This document shows positions 4,664-46,864 of a DNA stretch of 50,756 bases, in pieces. The position numbers and the translations under genes were made by a program. The notes below the pieces were generated by a model that did no database searches, was not told the DNA's origin, and worked only from the letters and a program-made list of their open reading frames with translations. The stretch is from Gammaproteobacteria bacterium. Its GTDB lineage: Bacteria > Pseudomonadota > Gammaproteobacteria > Acidiferrobacterales > Sulfurifustaceae. How positions within the stretch are numbered: position 1 is the stretch's first letter; each line of letters starts with the position of its first letter. The stretch spans positions 1-50,756 of the forward strand of contig JAOTWF010000012.1 of NCBI GenBank assembly GCA_029863005.1. Reading direction: 5' to 3'.

Positions 4664-4729
4664 CGAAAGCCGTTACAGCATAACACAGTCGTTTCACAAA
4701 AAAATTCGCCGCACGAGTTAACTATCTCC

Positions 4730-12477: not shown

Positions 12478-14223
12478 ATGCCATTTCGTTTTTTCAGGCT
12501 CGGCCGTCTCCAGCGCAAGGTGTTGCTGGTGGTTTCCGTCATCGTGATCGTGCCGATGCTCGTGGCCGGCTGGCTGGCCGCCGAATGGGTTTCGATCAGC
12601 TTCGAGAAGCGACTAGAGCAGTGGATCATCGACGCCGCCCGCGCCAACCAGAACTGGCTCCAAGCCTATCAAAATGACGCGGTCATCCTCGGCCGGGTGT
12701 TGGCGGATGACCCGGCCTACCTGAGCAATTTCGAGAGTTCACCCGAAGCCGCGGTGCCACCGGCGATCCAACGTATCTCGCAGGAACTGGGTATCAACCT
12801 GATCCAGGTCTATACCCCGGACAGAAAGTTGGTTTATAGCTCGTTACCGGTACAAGTGAATGCGCTGTGGGAACGCGGGCAGACGGCCGCCGTGCTTAAG
12901 GTCGTGACTCGGCAGCAGACCATGCTGGCCGCCGTGGGCATCACTCCCATCCCGCGGCGTGGCACCCCTCGCTACTACCTGGTGTTGGGCAGCTTGCTGG
13001 GGCAGGATTTCACGGATGAGTTGGCGCAGCTCACGGGCCTGAAGACACGACTTTATTACCGCGAGGGAAAAAAATACTACGATCTATTTTCCAGGCCCGG
13101 AAAGCCCGTTACGTTAAAACATCTCCCGGCGGCGGCGCTTAGCCGGCTGGAAAAAAACCGGAAACCCTATTACAGCCTGGAGGCGGAAAACGGCCAGTTC
13201 CGTGGACTGTACATGCCGATCGTGGATCCTACCGGACGTGTCGAGGCGATCATGTTCAGTGGGCTGGAACGCCGCGGGGTACAGGAGGTGCTCACCAACC
13301 GGATCGCGCTGTTCTTTTGGATTTCACTGTTGGGAGTGATCATCGGGGGTTTGACGGGCCTGTTGCTTTCGCGGCTGGTGGTGCGCCCGCTGGAATATTT
13401 GCGCAACGGGGTGATGCAGCTCGCCGGCCAGAACTTCAAGGCCAACGTGCCGATCACTTCGGACGACGAACTGGGTGATTTGGCCAAGGCGTTCAATGCC
13501 ATGGCGACGCGATTGCGCGAGGCGCGTGATGAGCAGGTGCAACGGTTCCAGAAAGACAAGCTCTCCGCCATGGGCGAGCTGTCGGCGTCCCTGGCGCACG
13601 AAATCCGCAATCCCATCGGCATCATCAATGCCTCGGCGGCGTTGCTCGACAAACCGGATTATGCCCCGGAGAAGAAAGCCGAGCTGACGCGCATGATCCG
13701 CGAGGAAAGCCTGCGCGTGGCGAACCTGGTGCAGGATTTCTTGCAACTGTCACGTCACCGCCAGCCGAGCTTTGCCGTTATCGATCCCGCCCAACCGCTG
13801 GAGCGCGCGCTCGAACTGGCATTGGCGGGCAACGATTCATCCAAAGTATTCAAGGATTTTCAGCATTGGGACGCGAAAATCAAGGCCGACGCTGGTCTGC
13901 TGCAACAAGCCTGGGGAAATATTTTCACCAATGCCTTGCAGGCCTTGAACGGCAAGGAGACCGAATTCTGTCTGCGTTCCGGCGTGGAAGACGGACACGT
14001 ATTCCTGTCGGTCGAGGACAACGGGCCGGGGGTGCCGGCTGAAATCATGCCGCGACTGTTTGAGCCGTTCTTCACCACCAAGGATCAGGGAACGGGCCTC
14101 GGCCTCACCCTCGCTTATACCCTGGTGCAGGCGAATGGTGGGCAGCTCGAGGCATTACCGCCGGAAGGCAAGGGTGCGCGGTTTATGATGCGGTTTCCTG
14201 TAAGTGAAGAAGGAGTAAATTAA
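12478..14223 (+). CDS. Membrane sensor histidine kinase (NtrB/AtoS class)
   Basis: 581 residues. One N-terminal membrane helix (about 14–36), an extracytoplasmic sensor domain of about 240 residues (Cache-like by size, no recognised ligand motif), a second helix (about 277–303), a HAMP domain to about 356, then the kinase core. The phospho-acceptor is His374 in SLAHEIRNPIG. ATP-binding boxes are all visible: N box NIFTNALQAL, G1 DNGPG, F box FEPFFTTK, G2 GTGLGLTLAY. Complete and apparently active. GGAG lies just upstream of the ATG. The stop overlaps the start of the response regulator gene (TAATG), so the pair is a two-component system made in fixed ratio. The signal is unknown. Confidence 0.93.
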   Translation: MPFRFFRLGRLQRKVLLVVSVIVIVPMLVAGWLAAEWVSISFEKRLEQWIIDAARANQNWLQAYQNDAVILGRVLADDPAYLSNFESSPEAAVPPAIQRISQELGINLIQVYTPDRKLVYSSLPVQVNALWERGQTAAVLKVVTRQQTMLAAVGITPIPRRGTPRYYLVLGSLLGQDFTDELAQLTGLKTRLYYREGKKYYDLFSRPGKPVTLKHLPAAALSRLEKNRKPYYSLEAENGQFRGLYMPIVDPTGRVEAIMFSGLERRGVQEVLTNRIALFFWISLLGVIIGGLTGLLLSRLVVRPLEYLRNGVMQLAGQNFKANVPITSDDELGDLAKAFNAMATRLREARDEQVQRFQKDKLSAMGELSASLAHEIRNPIGIINASAALLDKPDYAPEKKAELTRMIREESLRVANLVQDFLQLSRHRQPSFAVIDPAQPLERALELALAGNDSSKVFKDFQHWDAKIKADAGLLQQAWGNIFTNALQALNGKETEFCLRSGVEDGHVFLSVEDNGPGVPAEIMPRLFEPFFTTKDQGTGLGLTLAYTLVQANGGQLEALPPEGKGARFMMRFPVSEEGVN

Positions 14224-15614
14224 TGAAACGCACCGTGCTTGTCGTGGACGATGAACAGAACATGCAGACAGTCATGCGCATGGTGTTGGAAAACGCCGGC
14301 CATGAAGTGTTAATCGCCGACAGTGGTGAAAGCGCGCTGGTGCATGCGCAAAATCCGAATCTCGACGTCGTTCTCACCGATCTTCGAATGCCCGGCATGG
14401 GCGGAGAAGAATTCGTCATTCGTTGCCGCAAAGAGCGCCCGGACGTCCCGGTGATCATTGTCACGGCACACGGCACCATCCGCTCCGCCGTCAAGAGTAT
14501 TCACGACGGTGCGGCCGATTACCTTACCAAGCCATTCGAGCCGGAACAGCTCGAGATCGTGGTGCACAACGCCATCAAGCTGCGCGATATCCTGCGAGAG
14601 AATACCCGGCTCAAGGCCGAAGTGAACGAATCGCGCGGGACAAAACGTCTCGTGGGCGAAGGGCGGGTAGCGCAGCAACTGCTCGAGGAAATCCGGCGCG
14701 TGGCGCCGTACAAGACCGGCGTGCTGATTACCGGTGAATCCGGGACCGGCAAGGAGCTGGTGGCGCGCACCATCCACGAACTCTCGCCGCGACGGGAACG
14801 CCCGTGGGTCGCGCTCAACTGTTCCGCGATTCCACGGGACCTTCTGGAGTCCGAGCTGTTCGGCTACATCAAGGGCGCCTTCACGGGCGCGACGCACAAT
14901 CGCGCCGGCCGGCTGGAACAGGCGCAGGGCGGGACGCTGTTTCTGGATGAGATTGCCGACCTCGATGCCTCGCTGCAGTCGAAGTTGTTGCGTGTGTTAC
15001 AAGAGCGTGAATTTTCGCCGGTGGGCTCGAACCAGGTTCGGGCCGTGGACGTGCGTTTTATAGCCGCGACCAATCGCGAGCTGAAAGCGCTGGTGCAGGA
15101 AGGAAAATTTCGCGAGGATCTGCTCTACCGTCTGGATGTTTACAGCATCGTCGCGCCACCGCTGCGCAGCCGGCGTGAGGACATCCCGCTTCTGGCCCAA
15201 ACTTTCCTGCAGGAACTGGCCGCTGAGACCGATAAAAGAGTTACGGCCTTCACGCCGGCGGCGCTGGAGGCGTTGGCAGGCTACGCCTGGCCCGGTAATG
15301 TCCGCGAGTTACGCAACACGGTGGAGCGCTCGTTGCTGTCTTGCCAGGGAACAACGATCGATATAGGGGACTTGCCGGGGGCGATCGTGGCGCCGTCCGC
15401 CTCGGCCGCCGGCGAAAAATGCAAATTCGAAAAGAAAGGCAAGAAAAATCTGGACCACTGGCTGGAAGCGATGGAGCGCGACGCGATTCTCGAGGCGCTG
15501 GCGCAAACCCGGGGCGTGCAAACACATGCTGCGAAGAAACTGGGCATCTCGGAGCGCAGCCTGTGGCACCGTATCAAGAAACTTAACATACAAATTAACC
15601 GAGTCATCTACTGA
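14223..15614 (+). CDS. NtrC-family sigma-54-dependent response regulator
   Basis: 463 residues in three parts. The receiver domain (1–120) has the phosphorylation site Asp53 in VVLTDLRMPG and the conserved Lys in YLTKPFEPEQ. The AAA+ domain (about 145–375) has Walker A GESGTGKE at 171–178 and an intact GAFTGA loop at 218–223, the element that contacts sigma-54 RNA polymerase. A Fis-type helix-turn-helix (ALAQTRGVQTHAAKKLGIS) closes the protein. It should therefore activate sigma-54 promoters after phosphorylation by the overlapping kinase. The divergent small secreted protein gene has a perfect sigma-54 promoter, the only one I found in the window. Confidence 0.95.
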   Translation: MKRTVLVVDDEQNMQTVMRMVLENAGHEVLIADSGESALVHAQNPNLDVVLTDLRMPGMGGEEFVIRCRKERPDVPVIIVTAHGTIRSAVKSIHDGAADYLTKPFEPEQLEIVVHNAIKLRDILRENTRLKAEVNESRGTKRLVGEGRVAQQLLEEIRRVAPYKTGVLITGESGTGKELVARTIHELSPRRERPWVALNCSAIPRDLLESELFGYIKGAFTGATHNRAGRLEQAQGGTLFLDEIADLDASLQSKLLRVLQEREFSPVGSNQVRAVDVRFIAATNRELKALVQEGKFREDLLYRLDVYSIVAPPLRSRREDIPLLAQTFLQELAAETDKRVTAFTPAALEALAGYAWPGNVRELRNTVERSLLSCQGTTIDIGDLPGAIVAPSASAAGEKCKFEKKGKKNLDHWLEAMERDAILEALAQTRGVQTHAAKKLGISERSLWHRIKKLNIQINRVIY

Positions 15615-15689
15615 GACTTTCATGGATTTCGGCGGTTGCCGGAATCATTCGATGGCTTCATGATGTCTCTTCATCACAGGAGATAATCG

Positions 15690-16709
15690 ATGCTATCGCC
15701 CGCGGTTGTTGCCTGGCTGGAATTTTCCCTGTGTGCGGCGCTGATTGCCGTCGCCGGCACCCGGTTGTCGCGCTACGGCGATATCATCGCCGATAAAACC
15801 GGGCTGGGCGGTGCCTGGATCGGGCTAGCGCTCATGGCCACCGTCACCTCGCTGCCCGAGCTGGTCACTGGCGTGAGCGCGGTGGGGCTGGCCGATGCGC
15901 CGGACATCGCCGTCGGTAATGTTCTCGGCGCCTGCATCATCAATCTCACCATGATCGTCTTCCTCGATTTGCTGGCGCGCGAGGAGTCGATCTATTCGCG
16001 CGCCAGCCAGGGCCATATCCTGTCAGCCGGTTTTGGCATCATCATGGCCGGGTTCGTCGGCTTCAATGTTCTGTTTTCGCAGCATGGCGAAGCCATGTCG
16101 CTCTATTATGTCGGCGCCTACAGCCCGCTGCTGCTCCTGCTCTACGGTGTGGCGATGCGCACGCTATTTCGCTACGAACGCCGCCTGCGTGCCGAGGCGG
16201 TGGAGGAGCGTGTGGAGCGTTACCCCCACATCACCTTGCGCGACGCCCTGATCCGCTATGCACTCGCCGCCAGCGTCGTCGTGGCCGCCGGCCTGTGGCT
16301 GCCGTACGTGGGTAAGGACATCGCGCAGGCCATGGCCTGGCAGGAGACCTTCGTCGGCACGCTGTTTATCGCGCTGGCCACGACACTGCCGGAAATTGTG
16401 GTGACGATCTCGGCGCTGCGCATTGGCGCGCTCGATCTGGCGATCAGCAACCTGCTGGGAAGCAACCTGTTCAATCTTGTCATTATTGCGATTGACGATA
16501 TCGTCTATATCAAGGGCCCATTACTGTCACACGTGTCCTCGCTGCACGCGGTATCAGCCCTGTCGGTCGTGATGATGAGCGGCGTGGCCGTGGTCGGGCT
16601 GTTCTATCGGCCGCGGGAGCGGTTGTTCCGCACGGTCGGCTGGACCAGCCTGTTGCTGCTTTCCCTGTACCTGCTGAATACCTTCTTCCTCTATCTCTAC
16701 GGGGGCTGA
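15690..16709 (+). CDS. CaCA-superfamily cation antiporter (Na+/Ca2+ exchanger type)
   Basis: 339 residues, about ten membrane helices in two inverted halves. The alpha-1 repeat reads MATVTSLPELVTGVSAV then AVGNVLGACIINL; the alpha-2 repeat reads LATTLPEIVVTISALRIG then ISNLLGSNLFNL. The key acidic residue of both repeats (PELVT, PEIVV) is present; the first repeat has GAC where the second has the usual GSN. Expected to extrude Ca2+ (or another cation) against a Na+ or H+ gradient. The gene has a good AGGAGA ribosome-binding site, follows the response regulator by 75 bases and precedes the P-type ATPase by 2 bases, so antiporter and pump are surely one operon. Confidence 0.88.
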   Translation: MLSPAVVAWLEFSLCAALIAVAGTRLSRYGDIIADKTGLGGAWIGLALMATVTSLPELVTGVSAVGLADAPDIAVGNVLGACIINLTMIVFLDLLAREESIYSRASQGHILSAGFGIIMAGFVGFNVLFSQHGEAMSLYYVGAYSPLLLLLYGVAMRTLFRYERRLRAEAVEERVERYPHITLRDALIRYALAASVVVAAGLWLPYVGKDIAQAMAWQETFVGTLFIALATTLPEIVVTISALRIGALDLAISNLLGSNLFNLVIIAIDDIVYIKGPLLSHVSSLHAVSALSVVMMSGVAVVGLFYRPRERLFRTVGWTSLLLLSLYLLNTFFLYLYGG

Positions 16710-16711
16710 CC

Positions 16712-19396
16712 ATGGGCGACGCAGATCTGCGGCTGCAACCCGGAGAACCCACCTGGCATTTGTTGCCGGCCGAGGAAATTGCCCAGCGCCTGCGCATTAA
16801 CTTGGGCACTGGCCTGAGTGAGGTCGAAGCGCGTCGTCGCCTCGAGCAGTACGGTGCGAACGAAATTCGCGAAGGTCGCCGCCGCGGGCCGATCGCCATG
16901 TTCCTCGGGCAATTTACCGATTTCATGATCCTGGTGTTGATCGCTGCCGCGATCATCTCGGGCCTGATCGGCGACGTGGTCGACACGCTGGTGATCGTGG
17001 CCATCGTGACGCTGAATGCCGTGATCGGTTTCGTGCAGGAATACCGCGCCGAGCGTGCCATTGCCGCCCTCAAGCAGATGGCGGCGCTGCAGGCGCAGGT
17101 TCGGCGCAGCGGCCGGGCGATGCTGATCCCGGCTGCGGACCTCGTGCCCGGCGACGTGGTGGTGATCGAGGCCGGCAACGCGGTCCCGGCCGATCTGCGT
17201 CTGACCGAGGCAGTGCAGCTGCGTATCGAGGAGGCGGCGCTTACCGGCGAATCCCAGCCGGTGGAGAAGATCACGCGCGCCCTGCACGAGCCGGAATTGC
17301 CGCTCGGTGACCGACGCAACATGGCCTACAAGGGTACCCTCATCACCTACGGACGCGGCCACGGCGTGGTGGTGGCGACGGGTATGCATACCGAGCTGGG
17401 ACGAATCGCGATGTTGTTGCGCGAGGAAGGTGAGGTCAAGACGCCGCTGCAGAAGCGGCTCACCCGCTTCGGGCGCTTGCTGGCAATCGCGGTGCTCGTC
17501 ATCTGCGCCATTATGTTTGTCACCGGTCTGCTGCGCGGAGAACCGCTGGTGCTCATGCTGCTCACCGCTATCAGCCTCGCGGTGGCGGCCATTCCCGAAG
17601 CATTGCCGGCGGTGGTTACGGTATCGCTTGCGCTCGGGGCAAGGAAGATGGTTAGCAAAAATGCCCTGATTCGCAAACTACCCGCGGTCGAGACTCTTGG
17701 TTCGGTGACCTTCATCTGCTCGGACAAGACCGGCACGCTTACCGAAAACCGCATGCGCGCGGAAGAGTTTTGTGTTGCCGACCAGCCTGTGCGAAGCATC
17801 GACCCGGCCTCAGCATCATCGGAGCCGTGGCGCACGCTGTGGCAGGCCTTGGCGTTATCGAACGATGCTCGCGTAGGTGCCGACGGTGCCGTGATCGGGG
17901 ATCCGACAGAAGTGGCACTGTTCGAGGCCGCGCGTGCGGCCGGTGTTGACAAGACTGTTCAGGAAGCGGCGCACCCGCGTGTGAGTGAGTTGCCTTTCGA
18001 ATCCGAGCGCGCGCGCATGACCACGCTGCATCGGGAGGGGGAAGCCGTTATCGGATACACCAAGGGTGCTCCGGAGCGCGTGCTGCCGCTGTGTCATGAC
18101 CGGGTGGGGGCGGGGGGGACGGAGGCGCTCGATCGCGGGGAGATGGAAATCATCGCTGAACGCATGGCGGCCGACGGTTTACGGGTGCTGGCGGTCGCGC
18201 TACGCCGCTGGCCGGCGTTACCCGATCCACTTGAGGTGGAAAATGTGGAAACCGGCCTGAGTCTGATCGGGCTGGTGGGACTGCTGGATCCGCCGCGTGG
18301 CGAGGCACGTGAGGCTGTCGGACTCTGTCGCAGTGCCGGCATCACGCCGGTGATGATCACCGGCGATCATCCTGCCACGGCGCGCGCTATTGCGCAGCGG
18401 CTCAACATAATCGGGGAGGATGCCGAGGTACTTACGGGACGGGAACTCGCGCGCATTGATATGGAAGATTTCGAGCAGCGCGTGGAACGGGTGCGCGTGT
18501 ACGCACGCGTGGCGCCCGAGCAGAAGATTAAAATCGTCAAGGCACTGCAGGACAAGGGCGAGTTCGTGGCCATGACCGGAGACGGTGTGAATGATGCGCC
18601 GGCGCTGCGGCGCGCCGACATCGGCGTAGCCATGGGCATCACCGGGACTGATGTCGCCAAGGAGGCCGGTCACATGATCCTGCTGGACGACAACTTCGCG
18701 ACCATCGTGAGCGCGGTGCGCGAAGGGCGGCGCATTTTCGACAACATCCGCAAATTCGTGCGTTTTGTCATGACCGGTAACTCCGGCGAAATCGGCACGC
18801 TATTCCTGGCGCCGTTCCTGGGTCTACCGATCCCGCTGCTGCCGATCCACATCCTGTGGGTGAATCTCGTGACCGACGGTCTGCCAGGACTGGCACTCGC
18901 CGTGGAGCCCGAGGAAAAAGGCATCATGCAGCGCCCACCGCGTGCGCCGCAAGAGAACCTGTTCGCGCACGGAATATGGCAGCATATCCTCTGGGTCGGA
19001 GGGTTGATTACGGCGCTGTGCCTTTTCACGCAGGCGTGGGCGATCCGTGTCGGTGATGCCCACTGGCAGACCATGGTGTTCACCGTACTGACATTGTCGC
19101 AGATGACGCATGTGTTGGCGATCCGTTCCGAGACCGAATCGATGTTTACGCGAGGTTTCACTACCAACATGCCGTTACTGGGTGCGGTGCTGCTGACTTT
19201 CGCGTTACAGCTTGCCACCATCTACGTCCCCATGCTCAACCCGATCTTCCGCACTCAACCACTGACGGCGGTCGAGCTGAGTATCTGCCTCATGCTGGCG
19301 GCGACGGTATTCGTCGCCGTCGAGATCGAGAAATGGATGGTGCGCCGCGGTTGGCTCTATAACGGAGCACTGCGTGGTCGGAGCGCTAGCATTTGA
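16712..19396 (+). CDS. P-type Ca2+-transporting ATPase (P2A-like)
   Basis: 894 residues with full P-type layout: N-terminal cation-ATPase domain, actuator domain with LTGESQPVEK, phosphorylation Asp338 in SDKTGTLTEN, nucleotide-binding KGAPERVLPL and hinge TGDGVNDAPAL. Membrane motifs resemble SERCA-type Ca2+ sites: AAIPEALPAV in helix 4, TGNSGE in helix 5 and WVNLVTDGLP in helix 6, so the Asn, Glu and Asp ligands I remember from SERCA are conserved. Predicted inner-membrane pump that exports Ca2+. With the preceding antiporter it forms a cation-efflux pair. The following peptidase gene begins inside its last codons. Confidence 0.9.
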   Translation: MGDADLRLQPGEPTWHLLPAEEIAQRLRINLGTGLSEVEARRRLEQYGANEIREGRRRGPIAMFLGQFTDFMILVLIAAAIISGLIGDVVDTLVIVAIVTLNAVIGFVQEYRAERAIAALKQMAALQAQVRRSGRAMLIPAADLVPGDVVVIEAGNAVPADLRLTEAVQLRIEEAALTGESQPVEKITRALHEPELPLGDRRNMAYKGTLITYGRGHGVVVATGMHTELGRIAMLLREEGEVKTPLQKRLTRFGRLLAIAVLVICAIMFVTGLLRGEPLVLMLLTAISLAVAAIPEALPAVVTVSLALGARKMVSKNALIRKLPAVETLGSVTFICSDKTGTLTENRMRAEEFCVADQPVRSIDPASASSEPWRTLWQALALSNDARVGADGAVIGDPTEVALFEAARAAGVDKTVQEAAHPRVSELPFESERARMTTLHREGEAVIGYTKGAPERVLPLCHDRVGAGGTEALDRGEMEIIAERMAADGLRVLAVALRRWPALPDPLEVENVETGLSLIGLVGLLDPPRGEAREAVGLCRSAGITPVMITGDHPATARAIAQRLNIIGEDAEVLTGRELARIDMEDFEQRVERVRVYARVAPEQKIKIVKALQDKGEFVAMTGDGVNDAPALRRADIGVAMGITGTDVAKEAGHMILLDDNFATIVSAVREGRRIFDNIRKFVRFVMTGNSGEIGTLFLAPFLGLPIPLLPIHILWVNLVTDGLPGLALAVEPEEKGIMQRPPRAPQENLFAHGIWQHILWVGGLITALCLFTQAWAIRVGDAHWQTMVFTVLTLSQMTHVLAIRSETESMFTRGFTTNMPLLGAVLLTFALQLATIYVPMLNPIFRTQPLTAVELSICLMLAATVFVAVEIEKWMVRRGWLYNGALRGRSASI

Positions 19397-35280: not shown

Positions 35281-36225
35281 TCAGCGCGAGTAACCCCAAC
35301 TGTCTTTCAGGTACACATCGAGCCCGGTGTATTCCTCTTTGCTGGCAAAGGCCAGTCCTTGCTCGGCGCCACTGGCCGACAGCAGCCGCTGGATGGCGGC
35401 ATGGCCTTCCGGGGATACCAGTGCCGCGGCGATGCGCGCCTGGTCCGGTATGGAGATGCGCGGCCCGGCGGAGAAAGCTTGGTTTGGCAACACCTTCGAC
35501 TTGTATAACACGCGCACGATATTCTCGTGATTGGGGAAGGACTTCAGGTTCGCCACCGGGACGATGGCGGCGGCGCATTTCTTCTCGAAGGCCACACCCT
35601 GGTAAGCACTGGTCCAGCCAATGCTGTTGATGATCAGTGGCTGGCGCATGGGGTTGTCGAATTGCGCGAGTACGCTGAGCGTGCCCAGATTGGGCGGGTT
35701 CATGCCGCAGACCTTTTGCCCGGCAAGCTGTTTGAGTTCCGTGACACGGCTGTTGTCTTTGCGCACCACGACCGCGAAGGCATGTTCGCCGACAACTTTG
35801 ACCAGTGTGCTGTGCCGTAAATGCGAAATACGCCAACCGTTCAAGTGTGGACCGTCGAAAACAAGATCGTAACTGCCGCGCTGCATCTCCGTCTGATAGG
35901 TAAGCCAGTTCTGGGGATGGCGATAGACGATTTTCTTTCCCGTGATGCGTGAAAGGTATGCGGCGATCGGTTGGTAGGTGCGCTCGCCTTCCTCTTCCGT
36001 TTCGCGCGGCGGCGCGCTGAACACCAGCAAGTCGTCGGCACCGGCCGGCAGACCACGCGCCACCCCCTCAAGCGATGGGCGGGTGTGAGCTGCTTCCGGC
36101 GGGGAGAAGGAGGTCTTGCGTGCGCCGGGTGCGGGGTCCGCGGCTTTGGCGCCCGCCGTCAGCAACAGGGAGCCGAGCGATAATGCCAGCGTGATATTTT
36201 TGATTCTTTTGCTGAAACCGTACAC
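35281..36225 (-). CDS. PhnD-type periplasmic phosphate/phosphonate-like binding protein (copy 1)
   Basis: 314 residues with a signal peptide (ITLALSLGSLLLTAGAKAA). The mature part is the PhnD/PF12974-type two-lobe fold: VFSAPPRET, YQPIAAYLSRITGKKI, SYDLVFDGPHLNGW, MNPPNLGTLSVLAQFDNP and VLPNQAFSAGPR. Starts at GTG 36225, with AGGAGG four bases before it. The neighbouring gene is a clear paralogue; both share two cysteines (here about Cys173 and Cys217) and a C-terminal LKDSWGY-type ending. No ABC permease or ATPase gene is in the window, so it may act as an orphan sensor or scavenger, as AioX does for arsenite; the ligand is unknown. Confidence 0.82.
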   Translation of the reverse strand: MYGFSKRIKNITLALSLGSLLLTAGAKAADPAPGARKTSFSPPEAAHTRPSLEGVARGLPAGADDLLVFSAPPRETEEEGERTYQPIAAYLSRITGKKIVYRHPQNWLTYQTEMQRGSYDLVFDGPHLNGWRISHLRHSTLVKVVGEHAFAVVVRKDNSRVTELKQLAGQKVCGMNPPNLGTLSVLAQFDNPMRQPLIINSIGWTSAYQGVAFEKKCAAAIVPVANLKSFPNHENIVRVLYKSKVLPNQAFSAGPRISIPDQARIAAALVSPEGHAAIQRLLSASGAEQGLAFASKEEYTGLDVYLKDSWGYSR

Positions 36226-36274
36226 ATGACCTCCTTGTCAGGTAGAGTGAATAAATTACAAGAGAATTTGGTGC

Positions 36275-37219
36275 TCAGTAGTAGCCCCATTCGTTGCGCA
36301 AGTACTCGGCCAAGCCACTGTATTCTTGGTTGTTGGCCAGGGAAAAACTGTCACCAACCTTGTACGCCGCGCGCAATTTTTCTGTGGGCCCGCTGGCGTC
36401 TGCGGATGCCAACGCTTGAGCGATTTTCGCCTGGTCCTCCGGCGACACCCGCGGCCCGGCGGAGAATGCCTGGTTCGGCATCGCCGGTGTCTTGAAGACG
36501 ATGCGCGTCAGGCCAGTGTTGTCATATTTTTTCAGGTTGAGGACCGGCAGAATGCCGCCAACACACTTCCCGGCGACCACGCCAGCGTAAATCTTATCCC
36601 AGCCCTTGGTATTGATGATCACCGGCTGGCGAGAAGGATTGTCAAACTGGCCAAGCAGCACAAGCGTACCCAGATTGGGTGGCGCGTGGGTACAGAAGGT
36701 GCGGCCGGCCATCTGTCGAACGTTCTGGAACGGCTTGCTGTCTTTTTTGACAATGACCGCAAATTCATGCCGCTCGGGGATCTTGACCAGGATATTGTGG
36801 CTCAGCTTTTCCATGCGGTAGCTATTGAAGTGCGGACCGTCGAAAATGATGTCGTAGCCGCCCTGAAGCATTTCCGTGCGGTATACACCCCAGGTTCCCG
36901 GGTACTTGTAGCGGACTTTTCTGCCGATAACCTGGCTAAGGTAAGCCGCCACGGGCTGGTAGGTTTCCTTGGCCACTTCTGATGTTTCGCGCGGCGGTGC
37001 AGTGAATACCAGGGCATCTTGTTCTTCCACGATCTGTTCCGGGATCGTGTTTTTGGCCGGCATGGGTGTCGAAGGAGTGAAGACGACTTTCTTGATGGCG
37101 GCCGCGATGGCTTGCATCGGCGGCGTACTCTGGTTTCCGGAGGAATCCGCCGCCAGCGACGAGGCAAACGTCATGGAAAGGACAAAAAGGGATACAACCA
37201 GCGTGGACTTGGCGATCAT
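36275..37219 (-). CDS. PhnD-type periplasmic phosphate/phosphonate-like binding protein (copy 2)
   Basis: 314 residues, signal peptide (MIAKSTLVVSLFVLSMTFAS). Same motif series as its downstream neighbour: VFTAPPRETS, TYQPVAAYLSQVIGRKV, GYDIIFDGPHFNSY, HAPPNLGTLVLLGQFDNP and AMPNQAFSAGPR, ending in LRNEWGYY. Cysteines at about 176 and 219 align with those of copy 1 and could form a disulfide or bind a thiophilic ligand. AGGAGA seven bases before the ATG is a strong ribosome-binding site. The 49-base gap to copy 1 suggests co-transcription and an origin by tandem duplication followed by clear divergence. Confidence 0.84.
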   Translation of the reverse strand: MIAKSTLVVSLFVLSMTFASSLAADSSGNQSTPPMQAIAAAIKKVVFTPSTPMPAKNTIPEQIVEEQDALVFTAPPRETSEVAKETYQPVAAYLSQVIGRKVRYKYPGTWGVYRTEMLQGGYDIIFDGPHFNSYRMEKLSHNILVKIPERHEFAVIVKKDSKPFQNVRQMAGRTFCTHAPPNLGTLVLLGQFDNPSRQPVIINTKGWDKIYAGVVAGKCVGGILPVLNLKKYDNTGLTRIVFKTPAMPNQAFSAGPRVSPEDQAKIAQALASADASGPTEKLRAAYKVGDSFSLANNQEYSGLAEYLRNEWGYY

Positions 37220-37475: not shown

Positions 37476-37517
37476 AGAAGAAAAACCCTGCCCCACCGGT
37501 TCCACGGCGGGGCAGGG
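37476..37517 (-). terminator. Rho-independent terminator of the DUF3604 gene
   Basis: CCCTGCCCC (37486–37494) pairs perfectly with GGGGCAGGG (37509–37517). On the minus strand the hairpin is followed by TTTTTCTTCT (the A-rich run 37476–37485). It lies ten bases past the DUF3604 stop and separates that gene from the binding-protein pair. Confidence 0.85.
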
Positions 37518-37526
37518 GGCAAGTCG

Positions 37527-39911
37527 TCAAGTGAAGGTGATAAATAACGCCGAAGTCCAGACCTTGGCGTCGTCCACCTGGCGGGCCAGGAAATACACCG
37601 GACGATGTCCGTGCGGGCCATTGTGTGGGTCGATGTTGAGGGTGCCGGTGACTTCGCGCGGAGCCGCGGCATCGGACATGCGTTCGAATCCGAGGAACAT
37701 GTCCACGCCCGGCAGGTCCTTTTTGAGGCGCGCCGCCTCCAGCAATTCAGCTCCGGTAGTTTCCCATTCAAACGTCGGGCAGTGCACGAACGGGTTGCCT
37801 TTGAGGGGGTCGCCAACCTTCACGTAACCGTCAATGGTGCCTTCGACCCTGATCTTTGCGGTCTTCAGGTGCGAGACGTCGATTTCAATAGCGTCCACGT
37901 CGCCGTAGGTGTCGCTATTGAAGCCGATCGTGGTCGCGGATTCGCGCCAGCAGGTCTCCTCGATATGTTCGAAGCCAAGGCCGACAAAGTCGTTGATCAC
38001 AGCGTTGGTGATCGTGATTTTGCCTTTCCATGCTGCCCAGCGGTAGCGGTCCTTGACGCGCGCCCCGCCCCAGCGGAAGCGGATTTTGCGCTCCGAAAGT
38101 CCCAGTTCCGTTTGCAACTCGCGACGCCAGATTTCGCCGGTATGATCGTAGGCCACGATTTCGTCCCAGCCGGCATCGCCAAGGAAGCGGTATTCGAGCG
38201 TAGCCGCACCCTTGTGCTCGTACTCATCTCCCATGATGTGCTTGCCGCTGCGCAGCAGGCCATACGTGCGTTCGCCGGTGGAGGCAAAGGTATGGCGCGC
38301 GCGCAGGGCCTGGGCGATGGCTTTACGTGTTAGTGCCGGGGCGATCACGCCGGCGATGCCGCCCTTGGTGCCGAACACCGCTGTGCCGGGCACGCCGCCG
38401 CCGCAGCGGCCACGGTGCTCGTCACCGGCCATCGTGGCGCCGATCTTGTAGCCGCGTTCCATGGCCTCCTGGTACAACCACCCGAAGTGCCCCCAGCTCG
38501 ATCCGATCTCGATCAGCCGTTCGAGTTTGGGATAGTGCCAGTCAAGAATGCAGCGCCGTCCGCCGACATGGGGAATCAAGAGGTGACCTTCCGGGTCTTT
38601 GGCGTAAGCCATCCACAGATCTTCCAGCGGCCAGGCTCCGGGTTCGACCTGACTGCCCTTGGTGTCCTCGTTCCAGTCCACCGAGCGCACGTGCTCCCCT
38701 GTCTTGAGGAACGGGAACTCGGGTTCGCTGTCATGCAGGAAAATCACATTGTGGTCGCCGCCAGCGCACGAAGAGCCGCACCACTCAGTGCCGGGATAGG
38801 AGACGAACGTACCGTCTTTCGTGATCTCCCGAATCAGTTCGACCGTCTTCTTCCATCGTTCTGTCGTGATGTTGAAGTCATTGTGGGCGAAGGCGAGTAC
38901 GTCCAGGCCAGTCACGTCGCGACCGTAAGTCAGGTTATAAACACTCGAGTTGGTACCGATGGTGTCATCGGAATGCACATGCAGGTCGCAGTAATAGAGG
39001 CGTGGTGCCTCGAATGCCTTGTCCACGGTGGCGTAGAAGGTTTGTGGCTTTACCCAGGGATGCATGGGTAGGCGTGCGGAGACGGCGAGTTCCCCGGGTT
39101 TGTCGGTTGGCACGTCTTCCAGCAGCCGTACCGCCCAGCCCTTATCAGTCAGTGTGGTCTTCTTTTCGTACACCGGTTTGCCATCGAGGGTGGCGGTGAT
39201 CTCAACGTGTTCGGGGCGATCCCAGCAGGTGTTGCCCCATTCGTCCTCGGCGCGGATGCGCAGCGGCAGTTTCTCGCCGAGCTTCACGATGCGCGAACCG
39301 GCCCACTGAAGCTGTGCTGGTACGCCCGGCACGATCTGGATCACCAGATCCGGATTGACCGCCGCGAAACGCGAGGTACCGAGTGGATCGACATAACAGC
39401 GGATCTTGAAGTTCTGCTCGACGAAGGTTTGCACGCGCGTGCCGGGGCCGCCGAACCGCCGGTCACCGAGTCGAATGACGATGTGGTCGCCGGCCTTGAG
39501 ATAACCGTCGAAGGTGTCGACGATCACGGCTTTCTGGAACGGGCGTTCATGACCCTTCTGGTCGAAACGCACCTTCAGGTATTGCACGGTTGCTGGGCTC
39601 TGTCCGGGAATGGTGGGGGAGGCATGGTATTCGGCCGAGACGTAATTGGCCTCCGAGGGCTCGGTGGTCTGAAACAGCGCCCAGTCCGAGTAGAACCGGA
39701 ACGTTGCCTTGAACCACGAGCCGTCGGCCATGCCGGAGGCACCGAGTTCATAGTCGATCACGATCTCCTGCCAGGAGCCGGCTACGATGCTCTCAACGTT
39801 GCAACTGACCTTGCCGAGAAACGGCATGTCCTTGGTAGCGGAATAAAGTCCCTTGGGGGCTTGGTAATCGCCCAGCGCTTTCTGAATATCGGATTCGGGG
39901 ATCTTTTTCAT
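37527..39911 (-). CDS. DUF3604 protein with PHP-like metal site
   Basis: 794 residues. The first 290 residues are beta-rich, with Ig-like linkers. From about 300 a PHP-type hydrolase core appears: YYCDLHVHSDDTIG, LDVLAFAHNDFN, YPGTEWCGSSCAGGDHNVIFL, LIPHVGGRRCILDWHYP and ATMAGDEHRGRCGG, each with His/Asp residues that could bind two or three metals. A beta-rich C-terminus follows. No signal peptide is seen, so a cytoplasmic location is likely. The DUF3604 family has no agreed activity; phosphoesterase or related hydrolytic chemistry is plausible from the PHP core. ATG at 39911 is favoured over a TTG three codons earlier, with GGAG upstream. Confidence 0.85.
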   Translation of the reverse strand: MKKIPESDIQKALGDYQAPKGLYSATKDMPFLGKVSCNVESIVAGSWQEIVIDYELGASGMADGSWFKATFRFYSDWALFQTTEPSEANYVSAEYHASPTIPGQSPATVQYLKVRFDQKGHERPFQKAVIVDTFDGYLKAGDHIVIRLGDRRFGGPGTRVQTFVEQNFKIRCYVDPLGTSRFAAVNPDLVIQIVPGVPAQLQWAGSRIVKLGEKLPLRIRAEDEWGNTCWDRPEHVEITATLDGKPVYEKKTTLTDKGWAVRLLEDVPTDKPGELAVSARLPMHPWVKPQTFYATVDKAFEAPRLYYCDLHVHSDDTIGTNSSVYNLTYGRDVTGLDVLAFAHNDFNITTERWKKTVELIREITKDGTFVSYPGTEWCGSSCAGGDHNVIFLHDSEPEFPFLKTGEHVRSVDWNEDTKGSQVEPGAWPLEDLWMAYAKDPEGHLLIPHVGGRRCILDWHYPKLERLIEIGSSWGHFGWLYQEAMERGYKIGATMAGDEHRGRCGGGVPGTAVFGTKGGIAGVIAPALTRKAIAQALRARHTFASTGERTYGLLRSGKHIMGDEYEHKGAATLEYRFLGDAGWDEIVAYDHTGEIWRRELQTELGLSERKIRFRWGGARVKDRYRWAAWKGKITITNAVINDFVGLGFEHIEETCWRESATTIGFNSDTYGDVDAIEIDVSHLKTAKIRVEGTIDGYVKVGDPLKGNPFVHCPTFEWETTGAELLEAARLKKDLPGVDMFLGFERMSDAAAPREVTGTLNIDPHNGPHGHRPVYFLARQVDDAKVWTSALFITFT

Positions 39912-40004
39912 GAAATTCAACTTCTCCGTATAGTGGAAATGAGGAAGCTTCTAAATGCCGCGAGCGCGCGGCTCGTGGGGGTAAGGCTTATCGATCGTCC
40001 AAGA

Positions 40005-41222
40005 TCAAAACACGGCGCGAAGACCCGGCAGCGCCGCCAGTCGATCCCGCAAGACGCCGAGCAGCGCCCCGCCCAGCATTACTTTGATGCTGCTGACACG
40101 CCATGCCAACAGGGCTACAACCGTGAACGCAAAGAGGACAATGGCGAAAGTGTCCGGCACCGCGTGCGGGGCCATCTGTGCGAGCGAAACCGTGAGCATG
40201 CCGATCACCGCCGGCCCGATGCCCTTCAGCGCCGCTTTCATCCATTGCAATTGGCGCATGCGATCGAACGCCGGAAGAATCGACAGCATCAAAACGAATG
40301 ATGGCAGGAAGATCGCCACCGCGCCGACAATGCCGCCAGCGAAGCCAGCGAGTTTGTAGCCGACGTACGCCGCCACCATCAGTATCGGCCCCGGTGTGAA
40401 TTGCCCCAGCGCCAGACCGTCGACAAATTCGCGCGGTGTGAGCCAGTGGAACTGGTTCACGACTTGCTCTTGCACGAAGGCAATCATCGTCAACCCGCCG
40501 CCGAAGGAGAAGGCGCCGACCTTGAAGAAGAAGATGCCGATATCGAGCAGCCCGGCGGACGCGGCATCGGTTCCGATTATTGTTACCGGCGTGGCAAGCA
40601 GAGGCCAGGCCGCAAGATACCAATACAACCAAACAGCCATGAGCAGCACGAGGATCAATGCCCCGCGTTGGCGCGAGTGAAATAGAAAAATACCGAGACC
40701 GCCCGCCAACGCGAGCACCACGACAAGACCAAATGGGCCCATGGCCACGGCGGCTGCCGCGGCCAGCGCGATCAGGATCTGGGCAAGGCCAGTGATGGTA
40801 TTTCGACCCAGACGATAAACGGCGACCGAAAAGATTCCCAGCACCACCGGACCCAAGCCATACAGCGCGCCGCGCATCAGAGGTGTGCCGCCAACGGTGG
40901 CGTAGGCAACAGTCAGGGCCATCATGATGAAGAACGCTGGCAGGATGAAACACAGCCCGGCCAACAAACCGCCCCACCAACCGCCACGAGCATAGCCCAG
41001 AAATATGCCGAGTTGGGTGGCGCCCGCCCCCGGAAGCAGGTTCACCAGCGACAGCCCTTCCATGAAGCGTTCCTTGCTGAGCCACTGCCTTTTTTCCTGA
41101 AGCTCCGCCTGCATAATCCCCATGATGGCGGGCCCACCGTAGGCCATGGTGCCGATTTTGAGCAAGCCGGTCGTGATGTCTTTCCAGTTCAGTCTCAAAG
41201 AAGCTGGCGTGCTATCGGTCAT
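40005..41222 (-). CDS. chrA: ChrA-type anion transporter (copy 1)
   Basis: 405 residues, two tandem CHR domains with about ten membrane helices. First domain: KIGTMAYGGPAIMGIMQAEL and SLVNLLPGAGATQLGIFLGY. Second domain: KVGAFSFGGGLTMIAFVQEQ and GLALGQFTPGPILMVAAYVG. The chromate-transporter superfamily exports chromate with sulfate as look-alike, but many members have untested substrates. It begins 68 bases after the DASS carrier stop and ends 93 bases before the DUF3604 gene, all on the minus strand. A second, distant copy lies 3.4 kb away on the other strand. Confidence 0.85.
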   Translation of the reverse strand: MTDSTPASLRLNWKDITTGLLKIGTMAYGGPAIMGIMQAELQEKRQWLSKERFMEGLSLVNLLPGAGATQLGIFLGYARGGWWGGLLAGLCFILPAFFIMMALTVAYATVGGTPLMRGALYGLGPVVLGIFSVAVYRLGRNTITGLAQILIALAAAAAVAMGPFGLVVVLALAGGLGIFLFHSRQRGALILVLLMAVWLYWYLAAWPLLATPVTIIGTDAASAGLLDIGIFFFKVGAFSFGGGLTMIAFVQEQVVNQFHWLTPREFVDGLALGQFTPGPILMVAAYVGYKLAGFAGGIVGAVAIFLPSFVLMLSILPAFDRMRQLQWMKAALKGIGPAVIGMLTVSLAQMAPHAVPDTFAIVLFAFTVVALLAWRVSSIKVMLGGALLGVLRDRLAALPGLRAVF

Positions 41223-41290: not shown

Positions 41291-42835
41291 TTAAAACGGC
41301 CACGGTGCGCTCGCGTTCCACACCGGCAACCCGAGCACGGCGTACCACGGCGCCATGATCAGGATGCCGTAGGCGATCGCGATTAAAATACAAACCCATC
41401 CTGCTTTGGCGTAGTCTTCGGTGCTGAAGGTCTCAGAACCGTAGGCAATGACCGCCGCCGTAATCTGTGTCGGCAGCAGGTAGGCATAAGTATCGGTGTC
41501 GCATACGAGCAGTGTCAGTGCCACGTCATTCAAACCAAGCTTGGGCGCTAGCGCGAAGACGATTGGCGCCAGCATGGCGATCGCCGCGACGTTCGATAGC
41601 ATGCCGATGCGGATCACATGGGTGGCGAGCATGAGGATCAGCAGCACCATCCACCAAGACTGTCCAGTGACCCAGCCATGGGCCATATCGGCGAGGAAAG
41701 CTGCCAGCCCCGATTTGCCCATGGCGGCCGTCATGGTGATGGCGCCGCCTAGCAGCAGGAATGTGCCCCAGATCGTGCGGTCCTGGACCTCTTTCCACTT
41801 GAACGGGAATAGCCCCGGTGTGAACAGCACCAGCATGCCAATCAAGCCGATGATGCCGAGCTGGAACTTGTGCAGCTGGTAGATCGGGCTGCCCTTGCCC
41901 ATCGCGAACAACAGGGCGATGATGGCGAACACCAGCAGCAGCGTCCACTCGCCACGACTCATGGGGCCGAGATCCTTGTGCATCTTCTGGATCTTGGCGT
42001 GACCTCCGGCAATCTCGATGCCTTTGGTCCTGAAGTGATAGCGTACCCACCATTGGGTCAGCACGAACATGCCGAGGTAGGGGAACTGCAACAGCGCCCA
42101 ATCGAGGTAACCAATGGTTTTGCCTGCCTTACTGAAGATATCGACCATGATCAGGTTGGGAAGGTGGGCGGTCATGATGAACACGCCGCAGATCATGGTG
42201 CCGTAGACCAGCGACTGGATGACAATGGCCTTCTTGGCTTCGTTCTCCTCATCGGAGTCACCGAGCAGGTTGGTCACACCCTTGACAATCGGTAGCAGCG
42301 TCGCGGCACGGGCGTTGGCCGCCGGGATGAAAAAGGCGAGCAGGATATTGACGCCGAAAAACCCCCAAATGACGCGACCGACGTTGGAGGCCTTGACCTT
42401 GTCGAGAATACCGAGCGCGATACGCCGGTCCAGTTTCAGCAACTGCATGATCGCGCCGACCATGAAGGCGAAAAGACAGAGCCAAACGACGTGGCCGGTG
42501 AAGCCGGAAAAGACCGTGCCCATGGGAGGTTTGCCTTTGTCCCACGGGATCGCGTGCGTCAGGATCAACAGCGTGGGTACGGAAATGCCGGTGATACCGA
42601 CCGGCAGCGCCTCCGACACCCACATGATGCTTGCCCAAACCACTATGGCGAGCACCGCCATGCCCTCGGCAGTAAGCCCTTCTGGGCGCGGAAAAACCCA
42701 CATAATTAATGCGAACATCACCCACCCCAGGACGAACCCAATTAAAACGCGGGTTGGGTTACGACCGGTATGTTCGATGTTACTGGCGAGATAACCCAGT
42801 AGCCCACCGTTTGTTTGTGTTGCTGAAGTGGCCAT
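41291..42835 (-). CDS. SLC13/DASS-family anion:sodium symporter
   Basis: 514 residues, about eleven or twelve membrane helices. DASS landmarks include the LPVGITGISVPTLLIL helix, PAANARAATLLPIVKG in the first half and a second-half region with LLLGGAITMTAAMGKSG and SNVAAIAMLAPIVFAL. The family imports sulfate, di- or tricarboxylates with Na+. The sequence alone does not say which; linkage to ChrA-like carriers favours an inorganic oxyanion. AGGAG lies about six bases before the ATG. First gene of the minus-strand row, divergent from the small membrane protein–Crp–ChrA genes. Confidence 0.87.
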   Translation of the reverse strand: MATSATQTNGGLLGYLASNIEHTGRNPTRVLIGFVLGWVMFALIMWVFPRPEGLTAEGMAVLAIVVWASIMWVSEALPVGITGISVPTLLILTHAIPWDKGKPPMGTVFSGFTGHVVWLCLFAFMVGAIMQLLKLDRRIALGILDKVKASNVGRVIWGFFGVNILLAFFIPAANARAATLLPIVKGVTNLLGDSDEENEAKKAIVIQSLVYGTMICGVFIMTAHLPNLIMVDIFSKAGKTIGYLDWALLQFPYLGMFVLTQWWVRYHFRTKGIEIAGGHAKIQKMHKDLGPMSRGEWTLLLVFAIIALLFAMGKGSPIYQLHKFQLGIIGLIGMLVLFTPGLFPFKWKEVQDRTIWGTFLLLGGAITMTAAMGKSGLAAFLADMAHGWVTGQSWWMVLLILMLATHVIRIGMLSNVAAIAMLAPIVFALAPKLGLNDVALTLLVCDTDTYAYLLPTQITAAVIAYGSETFSTEDYAKAGWVCILIAIAYGILIMAPWYAVLGLPVWNASAPWPF

Positions 42836-44610: not shown

Positions 44611-45798
44611 TTGACCCCCCCACTTCCGCTGTCACAACTGTTTTGGATTTTTTTCCGTATCGCCTGCACCAGCTTCGGCGGTTACATGGCTATGATCTCC
44701 GTGGTGCAGAATGTGGTCGTCGAGCGCAAAAAGCTCATGACGCATGCGGATATGCTCGATGGTATATCGCTTGCCTCGATTCTTCCCGGGCCAGTCGCGG
44801 TCAATCTTGTGGCATATGTCGGTTACCGACTGCGCCGCGGACCCGGAGCGTTCGTGTGCGTGATCGCCGCGGTGCTGCCGTCGTTTGTGTTCATCATGAT
44901 CCTATCCATCGCCTATTTCCGTTACGGCCAGATGCCGGCGGTGTCAAAGCTGTTTATGGGTTTCATTCCCGCGGTGACCGCCATTATCGTGGCTGCGGCG
45001 TGGAATATGGGCCGCAAGGCGGTGCCGGGTGTGCGAGAAGGGGTACTGATGGTAGCGGCTGGCGCGGCGTTATACGGTATCGGTGGAGTGTGGAGCACAC
45101 TGCTCATCATTCTGTTTGCGGGCGTGGCCGGCTGGATGTGGTTTCGCGGTGATGTTCAGGGCGAGCCGGCGAAGCCTGCCAGGGCGGCCGACAAACCGGT
45201 CAAGCCACGTCTTAATGCGAACCTGCTGCTCTCGACCTCGGCACAGGCGGGCAATCTGGTGCCACTGATGGCGTTCGAGCCAAACCTCATCGCCCAGCTG
45301 TTTCTGACCTTCGCCAGCATGAGCCTGATGCTGTTCGGGGGCGCTTATGTGTTTATCCCGCTCATGCAGGAAATCGTAGTCGATGGGCATGGTTGGGTGA
45401 GCCAGCAGGAATTCATTGATGCCGTGGCGTTGGGCCAGATCACGCCCGGTCCCATCCTGGTGAGCGCGGCGTTCATCGGGTTGAAGGTCGCCGGCTTCGC
45501 CGGTGCAGCGGTTGCTACCATCGGCATCTATCTGCCCTCGGCACTGCTCATCATCGGCAGTACCCACGGACTTCAGAAGGTTCGCCATTCGGTCATCATC
45601 AAGGCGGCGCTGCGCGGCATCCGCCCGGCTGTGGTCGGGATGATCTTCGTCGCAGCAGTGATTATTGGCCAGACCGCCGTCCCGGTTTGGATATCGGTGG
45701 TGATCTTTGTGGGCGCGTTGTACACACTGTTTCGCTTCAGGGTCGAGGCGGTGTGGATCATTCCGCCGGCGGGTGTGCTGGCGGTTTTGTTTTACTGA
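44611..45798 (+). CDS. chrA: ChrA-type anion transporter (copy 2)
   Basis: 395 residues, two CHR domains. First: RIACTSFGGYMAMISVVQNV and SLASILPGPVAVNLVAYVGY. Second: SMSLMLFGGAYVFIPLMQEI and AVALGQITPGPILVSAAFIG. A hydrophilic linker (GEPAKPARAADKPVKPR) joins the halves. Starts at TTG 44611, supported by GGAGG at 44599–44603. Only distantly similar to copy 1, so not a recent duplicate; the first-domain FGG motif is followed by YMAM rather than PAIM. It lies 180 bases after the Crp-family gene and 33 bases before the sulfotransferase gene, likely co-transcribed with it. Confidence 0.85.
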   Translation: MTPPLPLSQLFWIFFRIACTSFGGYMAMISVVQNVVVERKKLMTHADMLDGISLASILPGPVAVNLVAYVGYRLRRGPGAFVCVIAAVLPSFVFIMILSIAYFRYGQMPAVSKLFMGFIPAVTAIIVAAAWNMGRKAVPGVREGVLMVAAGAALYGIGGVWSTLLIILFAGVAGWMWFRGDVQGEPAKPARAADKPVKPRLNANLLLSTSAQAGNLVPLMAFEPNLIAQLFLTFASMSLMLFGGAYVFIPLMQEIVVDGHGWVSQQEFIDAVALGQITPGPILVSAAFIGLKVAGFAGAAVATIGIYLPSALLIIGSTHGLQKVRHSVIIKAALRGIRPAVVGMIFVAAVIIGQTAVPVWISVVIFVGALYTLFRFRVEAVWIIPPAGVLAVLFY

Positions 45799-45831: not shown

Positions 45832-46864
45832 ATGTCAATCTTTATGATCGGAACTCAGCGTTCAGGTTCTAATTTGCTGCGTCTGATGCTGAACCAACTG
45901 CCCCGCATCACCGCCCCACACCCGCCGCATATCCTGCCACGTCTGATGCCGCTGCTGGTGAACTATCGGGATCTGGAGCGACGCGAAAAACTTCGCGCAG
46001 CTGGTGGATGATGTCTGCCGGCTGGTAGAGCTCAATCCGGTACGATGGGAGGGTGTAACGCTCAACCGTCTCGACATCCAGTTGCGCTGCCATCGTCACA
46101 CGCTCATGGCCGTGTACGAAGCCATGTACGACGTGATGGCCGAAGCCTGGGAGGTGCGCAGCTGGTGCTGCAGGAGCCTCGCCAACATCCTGTACCTGGC
46201 GCCCATTGAGGAACACTTCACCAGTCCGCGCTACATTTATCTGTACCGCGACGGGCGCGACGTGGCCTGCTCGTTCCGCAGCGCGGTAGCGGGAGAGAAA
46301 CACTTCTATCATATTGCGAAGGAATGGGACGCGACCCAACAACAGGCACTGGGCATGCGCGAACGCATCGGCCCCGGCCGCTTCGTCAGCATCAGTTACG
46401 AGTCGCTGATCCGTGAACCGGAATTGACCATGCGTCTGCTATGCAAGTTCTTAGGCGTGCGCTACCACCCATCAATGCTGGAGTATTACAAATCTGATGA
46501 AGCCAGGCGCGCGGCCGAATCGAGCGACCTGTGGGGCAACGTCGCCAAGCCGATCATGGCCGATAACACCCGCAAGTTCTTGCGCGAGGTCGGCGAATCC
46601 GATATCCGCCTCTTTGAGTCGGTGGCGGGCGATGTGCTGGAGGCCTTAGGCTACGATTGCCTGTACGCCCCACCAGGCGAAAAAACGATTTACAGTCAGG
46701 AAGAGATCCGCCAATTTGAAGCGGAGAACCTGCGTCTCAAGGAAGCAGTGCGACAACGCACGCGCGGTGATGACCTTCAGCGCCGTGACCGTCAGGTCAG
46801 TCTGATTCAGGAGATCCGTAACCGCGGCCAGATGTCTCCGACGTCCCTGCGCGCCATTGCCTGA
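45832..46864 (+). pseudogene. Sulfotransferase gene with a single-base frameshift
   Basis: Two overlapping frames make one sulfotransferase of about 343 residues. Frame one starts at ATG 45832 (AGGAG nine bases upstream) with the PAPS-binding P-loop IGTQRSGSNLLRLML and stops at 46009–46011. Frame two resumes at FAQLVDDVCRLVELNPVRW and contains the 3'-phosphate motif IYLYRDGRDVACSFRSA and RFVSISYESLIREPE. Removing one A from the A5 run at 45986–45990 joins them as DLERRENFAQLVDDV, a natural sequence. So this is a recent inactivating mutation, a sequencing or assembly error, or slippage-dependent expression. The C-terminus has a charged helical extension. Confidence 0.83.

Follow-up and report, generated by a model that had tools for sequence, protein, structure and literature searches.

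Twin stand-alone PhnD-fold binding proteins with a conserved cysteine pair in a relative of Sulfuricaulis

Described PhnD-fold proteins and the twin-gene locus

The PhnD fold is found in proteins with several distinct functions. PhnD, PtxB, and HtxB are ABC binding proteins for phosphonate, phosphite, and hypophosphite, respectively, and members of the Pfam family PF12974 (Phosphonate-bd) usually serve ABC importers. AioX, ArxX, and ArrX are arsenic-sensing binding proteins, and AioX works without an ABC importer. BstB (MCA1014) is a sterol-binding protein of Methylococcus that forms a separate cluster of 16 sequences (PMC10942540). The Phosphonate-bd domain is also present, in a sulfur context, in the tetrathionate and thiosulfate sensors TtrS and ThsS (PMC5408782 and PMC11293645), where it is fused to a histidine kinase.

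The stretch of DNA analyzed here (referred to as the window; 50,756 nucleotides) represents one contig of a 2.45-Mb genome that is 95% complete and consists of 134 contigs. The nearest named relatives of this genome are Sulfuricaulis, a genus of sulfur oxidizers, and other Acidiferrobacterales. The part of the window that concerns us contains the following features:

35281 to 36225, minus strand: PhnD-like binding protein 2 (P0001), 314 aa, GTG start behind AAGGAGG, Cys173 and Cys217
36275 to 37219, minus strand: PhnD-like binding protein 1 (P0002), 314 aa, ATG start, Cys176 and Cys219
37486 to 37517, minus strand: terminator-like hairpin of 13 pairs, then TTTTTCTTCT, between the twin pair and the upstream gene
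37527 to 39920, minus strand: DUF3604 or CehA-McbA-like metallohydrolase, 797 aa, scoring 29.8 bits on Pfam DUF3604 (cutoff, 20.4) and recurring near the binding-protein family
40005 to 41222, minus strand: chromate-type (CHR) transporter with two domains, matching Pfam and NCBIfam profiles and recurring near the binding-protein family
41291 to 42835, minus strand: DASS family sodium-coupled anion symporter, matching Pfam and NCBIfam profiles and recurring near the binding-protein family

A preliminary description of this locus had reported two divergent paralogs with shared motifs and two cysteines each at matching places, and these features are all present. Both proteins contain VFSAPPRET or VFTAPPRET, FDGPH, PPNLGTL, QFDNP, and PNQAFSAGPR and end in WGYSR or WGYY, they have no cysteines other than the two listed above, and their alignment (323 columns) shows 44% identity. 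The gene for protein 2 is the downstream one, separated from the gene for protein 1 by 49 bp. Inspection by eye shows an AAGGAG-type ribosome-binding site just 5′ of each gene and, at both N termini, a hydrophobic stretch that resembles a signal sequence and has no lipobox cysteine. The hairpin at 37517 to 37486 has the longest stem of the 6 such sites in the region (shuffled sequences contain 3.7 on average, with a standard deviation of 2.2). As this terminator-like element sets the twins apart from the metallohydrolase, they probably share a two-gene transcript of their own.

Both twins belong to the PF12974 superfamily, with scores of 73.4 and 94.7 bits against a cutoff of 27. In contrast, both are far below the cutoffs of the NCBIfam models for PhnD and for phosphate/phosphonate binding proteins: protein 1 scores 24.9 bits on TIGR03431 (cutoff, 261.1), and protein 2 scores 19 bits on TIGR01098 (cutoff, 112). 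The AlphaFold2 model of protein 1 (positions 36275 to 37219; 20 aligned relatives; mean pLDDT of 82.8) agrees with the PhnD fold proposed earlier. Its best matches, in a ranking that holds among the matches listed, are XAC2383, ArrX, HtxB, PhnD, BstB, and PtxB (Z scores of 19.3 to 21.1, rmsd of 3.5 to 4.8, 235 to 249 residues aligned). XAC2383 of Xanthomonas citri is at the top (Z of 21.1, rmsd of 3.5, 242 residues aligned), with only 14% identity, and AioX matches with a Z of 17.6 and an rmsd of 5.1 over 244 residues. For BstB, the values are 19.5, 3.5, and 242, respectively, with a TM-score of 0.75 for its structure (7t1m) on the protein 1 model as the target. The closest sequence relative in PDB is HtxB (E value of 1.7e-10 with the profile).

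The twins share the fold and the Pfam family with PhnD, PtxB, and HtxB but score far below the NCBIfam cutoffs, have swapped pocket residues and a cysteine pair, and come from a genome in which no PhnE was found. They share the fold with AioX, ArxX, and ArrX but have no cysteine in the AioX 106 column, no adjoining XSR cluster, and other pocket residues. With TtrS and ThsS, the likeness is by description, not by sequence, and the twins, unlike those sensors, are stand-alone proteins. The twins are members of a distinct gammaproteobacterial subfamily of an already-known fold. This subfamily is little studied; a literature search on the subfamily, the substrate-binding proteins of Sulfuricaulis, and DUF3604, which covered mainly freely accessible papers, returned nothing on this family.

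Of the 57 genomes of the order, 55 have a family match at an E value of 1e-20, and in each of these 55, the best match has an E value of 6e-60 or better. A class-wide sample, with the class label taken from named relatives, has the family in 36 of 274 genomes at an E value of 1e-55. Both samples come from a profile search that did not require the cysteines, with a profile built from pair-bearing members, and a part of the order- and class-level matches was fetched and inspected individually. In the FastTree tree, the window proteins fall into separate clades of 12 and 18 rows (supports of 97 and 99, tree confidence being FastTree local support only). Members of both clades are found side by side in at least 5 genera, including that of the window, which indicates that the twins represent an old duplication that has been retained.

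Gene neighborhoods and candidate transport partners

The preliminary description noted that no permease or ATPase gene is linked to the twins. This holds for ABC systems, as neither an ABC ATPase nor an importer permease is detected on the contig with the PhnC and PF00528 models, but not for transporters in general, because the DASS symporter and the CHR transporter are encoded nearby on the same strand. The genome-wide search for a partner that had been suggested has now been made, and no cognate Phn ABC transporter was found in the 95%-complete genome with the PhnE, PhnC, and PF00528 models. PhnE gave 0 matches, while 13 of 14 controls were matched; all PhnC matches were below the cutoff. 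Among 20 genomes of the taxonomic family, PhnE scores above its cutoff in 1, and some match to its model at an E value of 0.001, mostly to other importers, is seen in 17. The binding-protein family is present in 19 of these 20 genomes. The gene content does not support the Pfam label of phosphonate transport for this family.

The permease search took in PF00528-type permeases and returned nine matches over five contigs of the genome. On four of these contigs, the adjoining binding proteins belong to the NMT1-like, SBP_bac_5, PBP_like_2, and SBP_bac_1 families of Pfam; on the fifth one, an FbpA-like binding protein was recognized by eye. It appears unlikely that the twins are ordinary orphans that feed an unlinked ABC importer, its permease being encoded elsewhere. 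Such a role would be the usual one for PF12974 proteins, and a partner may be missing from the assembly, given its 95% completeness and an NMT1-type importer (contig C129) that is cut at the contig end. In addition, at one related locus (L066), an NMT1-type ABC system replaces DASS, directly upstream of the hydrolase and three family members. However, the latter system has an NMT1-type binding protein of its own, every PF00528-type importer found in the twins' genome adjoins another kind of binding protein, no PhnE was found there, and the 25 families listed (of 71) for 41 close same-strand neighbors include no ABC family.

The most common of these 41 neighbors are SBP_bac_11 (5), DASS (4), sulfotransferase (4), and DUF3604 (2). 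They were collected around the 121 pair-bearing homologs described below, 36 of which have a nonfamily same-strand neighbor within 250 bp; 22 have another family member within that distance, and 9 of the 242 sides are at a locus edge. Genes at the relatives' loci were called with a simple open reading frame caller, without annotation, and the neighbor names NtrB, GlnA, UbiH, FbpA, RND, and GcvT were mostly assigned by eye. No family member was called at L055, L058, L059, L061, L062, L103, L129, L131, L142, L189, L194, L195, and L241.

The metallohydrolase is a possible functional partner of the binding-protein family. It scores 32.4 bits on the NCBIfam CehA_McbA model, below the cutoff of 80. 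Orthologs with at least 66% identity are encoded in 23 of the 57 genomes of the order, and two more genomes have versions with 28 to 33% identity. Among the matches listed, a member of the binding-protein family is located within 2 kb of the hydrolase in at least 12 of the 23 genomes, whereas 11 have none close by. In one of these 11 (G025), the hydrolase gene and the binding-protein gene are split between contigs, and a truncated DASS gene adjoins the binding-protein gene. The gene order is hydrolase and then binding protein in the window's family and binding protein, DASS, and then hydrolase in another family. In relatives, the equivalent locus, between glnA-ntrBC-like and ubiH-like genes, contains either CHR-type and sulfotransferase genes or a DASS-hydrolase couple, and the close relatives at L038 to L041 have the twin pair at the same locus without DASS or the hydrolase. 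With 11 of the 23 hydrolase genomes having no close listed member, the transporter link is at most a local one. The terminator-like hairpin between the twins and the hydrolase also speaks against it, many family members are encoded at other places, and the connection of the family to a DASS-hydrolase module is suggestive but not tight.

Several other features of these loci deserve mention. By eye, the metallohydrolase (37527 to 39920, minus strand) has an HxH and further His, Asp, and Glu motifs that resemble a PHP-type metal site. The full-length CHR transporters at 40005 to 41222 (minus strand) and 44611 to 45798 (plus strand) flank the DASS symporter and a Crp-type regulator gene. The sulfotransferase-like open reading frame at 46004 to 46864 (plus strand), with 45832 to 46011 just upstream, matches only profile positions 79 to 215/216; it is 286 aa long, compared with 335 to 402 aa in relatives, and may have lost its front part. 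Elsewhere in the window, a sensor kinase, an NtrC-type regulator, a sodium/calcium exchanger, and a cation P-type ATPase are encoded in a single-strand run (12478 to 19396, plus strand). The twins' genome encodes a third pair-bearing family member at positions 3884 to 4738 (minus strand) of L060; by eye, its gene is divergent from an operon for an iron-type ABC system, an arrangement that recurs in several relatives. At L106, L168, L172, L183, and L187, a family member is followed on the same strand by an SBP_bac_11 gene, so that two kinds of binding protein are encoded in tandem. Some family members (8 of 37 class-level rows) are located beside an RND-type efflux operon.

The cysteine pair and the ligand-binding cleft

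The cysteines of the two twins occupy the same alignment positions, as had been proposed, and the pair is also common to their relatives. Both cysteines are present in all 36 family-level homologs, including the two from the window. The wider set was obtained in part from 70 loci (L063 to L132) fetched with two sequence patterns; one of these contains the first cysteine, so this sample leans toward pair-bearing members. A total of 181 matches gave 139 distinct rows after removal of duplicates and of rows shorter than 240 aa, and adding 40 class-level rows and removing repeats gave 176 distinct homologs. Of the 139, 121 have cysteines in both columns, 17 have neither, and 1 has the first one only. 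This single row has its partner elsewhere, in a second register, and does not represent an unpaired cysteine. In the class-level profile sample, 14 of the 40 rows have no Cys in the 219 column, and all 14 have one located 37 residues after the first.

Among the 176 homologs, 144 have register A (176 and 219), 15 have register B, 17 have neither cysteine, and none has a single one; all 159 proteins with the first cysteine also have a partner at one of the two sites. In register B, which is confined to one clade of 15 rows, the second cysteine is found exactly 37 residues after position 176, about 6 residues upstream of the 219 column. At L212, L213, L214, L226, L229, and L250, register B members are encoded divergently from genes for a membrane-fusion protein (Pfam) and an RND-type efflux protein (by eye). 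The 17 rows with neither cysteine, some of which have cysteines elsewhere, include a clade of 11, 5 distant rows (40 to 80 bits), and L128_3, which has lost both while nested inside a pair-bearing clade of the FastTree tree. On a FastTree tree built without the cysteine columns, the fewest changes are 2 for pair versus none, one of them being the double loss in L128_3, and 1 for the register. Pair-less distant homologs at L145, L146, L166, and L187 adjoin a large gene of one cluster (696 to 929 aa); at L166, its product is a GGDEF-EAL protein, which suggests signaling in that pair-less branch.

In 116 of the 121 pair-bearing proteins, these are the sole cysteines of the mature domain. According to the prediction for protein 1, Cys176 is within strand 174 to 178 and Cys219 is just before strand 221 to 225. 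These strands, the first and the third of the second lobe, neighbor each other in this fold class. The register B partner falls at about position 213 (by hand count on L132_6), in the predicted helix 207 to 215 that precedes strand 221. Cys176 aligns with Phe120 and Cys219 with Val169 of Escherichia coli PhnD, neither of which is among the pocket residues named in PMC5908839. The two cysteines are kept or lost together, and the second one can shift by almost two turns of a helix without any change in the position of the first, which is the behavior expected of a disulfide. This pattern suggests that the pair is a structural disulfide outside the pocket rather than a ligand site, although a two-thiol ligand or a metal site would be expected to produce the same covariation.

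In AioX, the pocket consists of Tyr88, Cys106, Tyr131, Ser161, Ser163, His192, and Asp210, with Cys106 and Asp210 corresponding to Gly65 and Asn175 of PhnD (PMC5908839). The family was aligned to E. coli PhnD by sequence with MAFFT, at a low identity (hhalign E value of 0.008, probability of 5%), so that single pocket columns may be one residue off. As further equivalent residues of PhnD and AioX, we take Tyr47 and Tyr88, Ser127 and Ser161, Ser129 and Ser163, and His157 and His192, respectively.

Most of these columns are replaced in the 121 pair-bearing homologs. The column of AioX Cys106 and PhnD Gly65 corresponds to Gly128 in the twins' family (Gly in 115). The PhnD Tyr47 column holds Trp110 (118), Ser127 is replaced by Leu183 (96), and Ser129 is replaced by Thr185 (107). 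The His157 column, at position 207, is aromatic in 110 members (60 Trp, 42 Phe, and 8 Tyr), the Asn175 column contains mostly Pro (84) or Arg (26), and the Asp205 column contains Gln (111). The family has its own conserved residues, namely, Pro76 (121), Asp127 (120), Tyr113 (119), Arg135 (118), and His130 (97). The alignment places the family outside the proteins with the PhnD/AioX ligand pocket, and these replacements indicate that the oxyanion pocket is largely absent.

The aromatic residues gained in the cleft, together with the position of BstB (7t1m; Z of 19.5) among the best fold matches, raise the question of whether the twins are carriers of hydrophobic molecules, like BstB, and act without an inner-membrane ABC importer. 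The cleft of BstB is described as hydrophobic in PMC10942540. For the twins, such a function seems quite unlikely: the charged residues Asp127, His130, and Arg135 are conserved, and no recurring lipid-handling gene was seen among the neighbors named, which are a part of all.

A sensor role or a thiophilic ligand had been proposed by analogy with the cysteine of AioX. In a full version of this idea, the pair would bind a ligand such as arsenite or an oxyanion of sulfur, and a membrane kinase or regulator would receive the signal. The fold shared with AioX and ArrX (Z of about 17 to 21), the same domain in the sulfur-compound sensor TtrS, the relationship of the host to a genus of sulfur oxidizers, and the similar covariation of a two-thiol site would fit this proposal, as would the NtrB/NtrC-like genes seen by eye a few genes off in many relatives. 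However, the latter adjoin a glnA-like gene (by eye), which points to nitrogen control. The AioX Cys106 column holds Gly, the His192 column is aromatic, the Asp210 column holds Pro or Arg, and the twins' cysteines map outside the pocket positions. The longest open frame among the matches listed is 559 aa, with no fused kinase; no XSR-like cluster adjoins the twins; and, in the 25 of 71 families listed for the 41 close neighbors, response-regulator domains occur in 2 members and kinase domains in none. The mapped columns and the way in which the cysteines pair do not support an arsenite or thiophilic sensor, and an AioX-like function is considered very improbable.

Proposed function

The twins are probably stand-alone, disulfide-stapled periplasmic binding proteins of the PhnD fold, with a rebuilt cleft and no Phn-type ABC transporter, that may pass their ligand to a secondary transporter. 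Both would be exported as soluble periplasmic proteins, after which a single disulfide, linking Cys176 on strand 1 of the second lobe to Cys219 at the base of strand 3, would staple this lobe. The cleft would be rebuilt through Trp in place of PhnD Tyr47, an aromatic residue in place of His157, Pro or Arg in place of Asn175, and Gln in place of Asp205, with the conserved Asp127-Gly-Pro-His130 segment, Arg135, and Tyr113. A cleft of this kind makes phosphonate, phosphite, or arsenite an improbable ligand; we infer that a small organic or zwitterionic molecule is probably held there by the aromatic and charged residues.

Such a protein would serve for the capture or carriage of its ligand on its own. 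At the window locus, the adjoining secondary transporter and metallohydrolase would be the likeliest destination of the ligand. A more specific version, in which the binding proteins serve the DASS or CHR transporter and the cytosolic DUF3604/CehA-like metallohydrolase cleaves the imported compound, so that the locus encodes a binding-protein-dependent uptake and degradation module, has only a slim chance of being correct. Neither DASS nor CHR transporters are known to use binding proteins.

The subfamily of stand-alone PhnD-fold proteins described here is nearly universal in one order, which includes sulfur oxidizers. Knowing what these proteins bind would set right the names of many such genes and would be a test of whether non-ABC transporters can be served by proteins of the PhnD fold.
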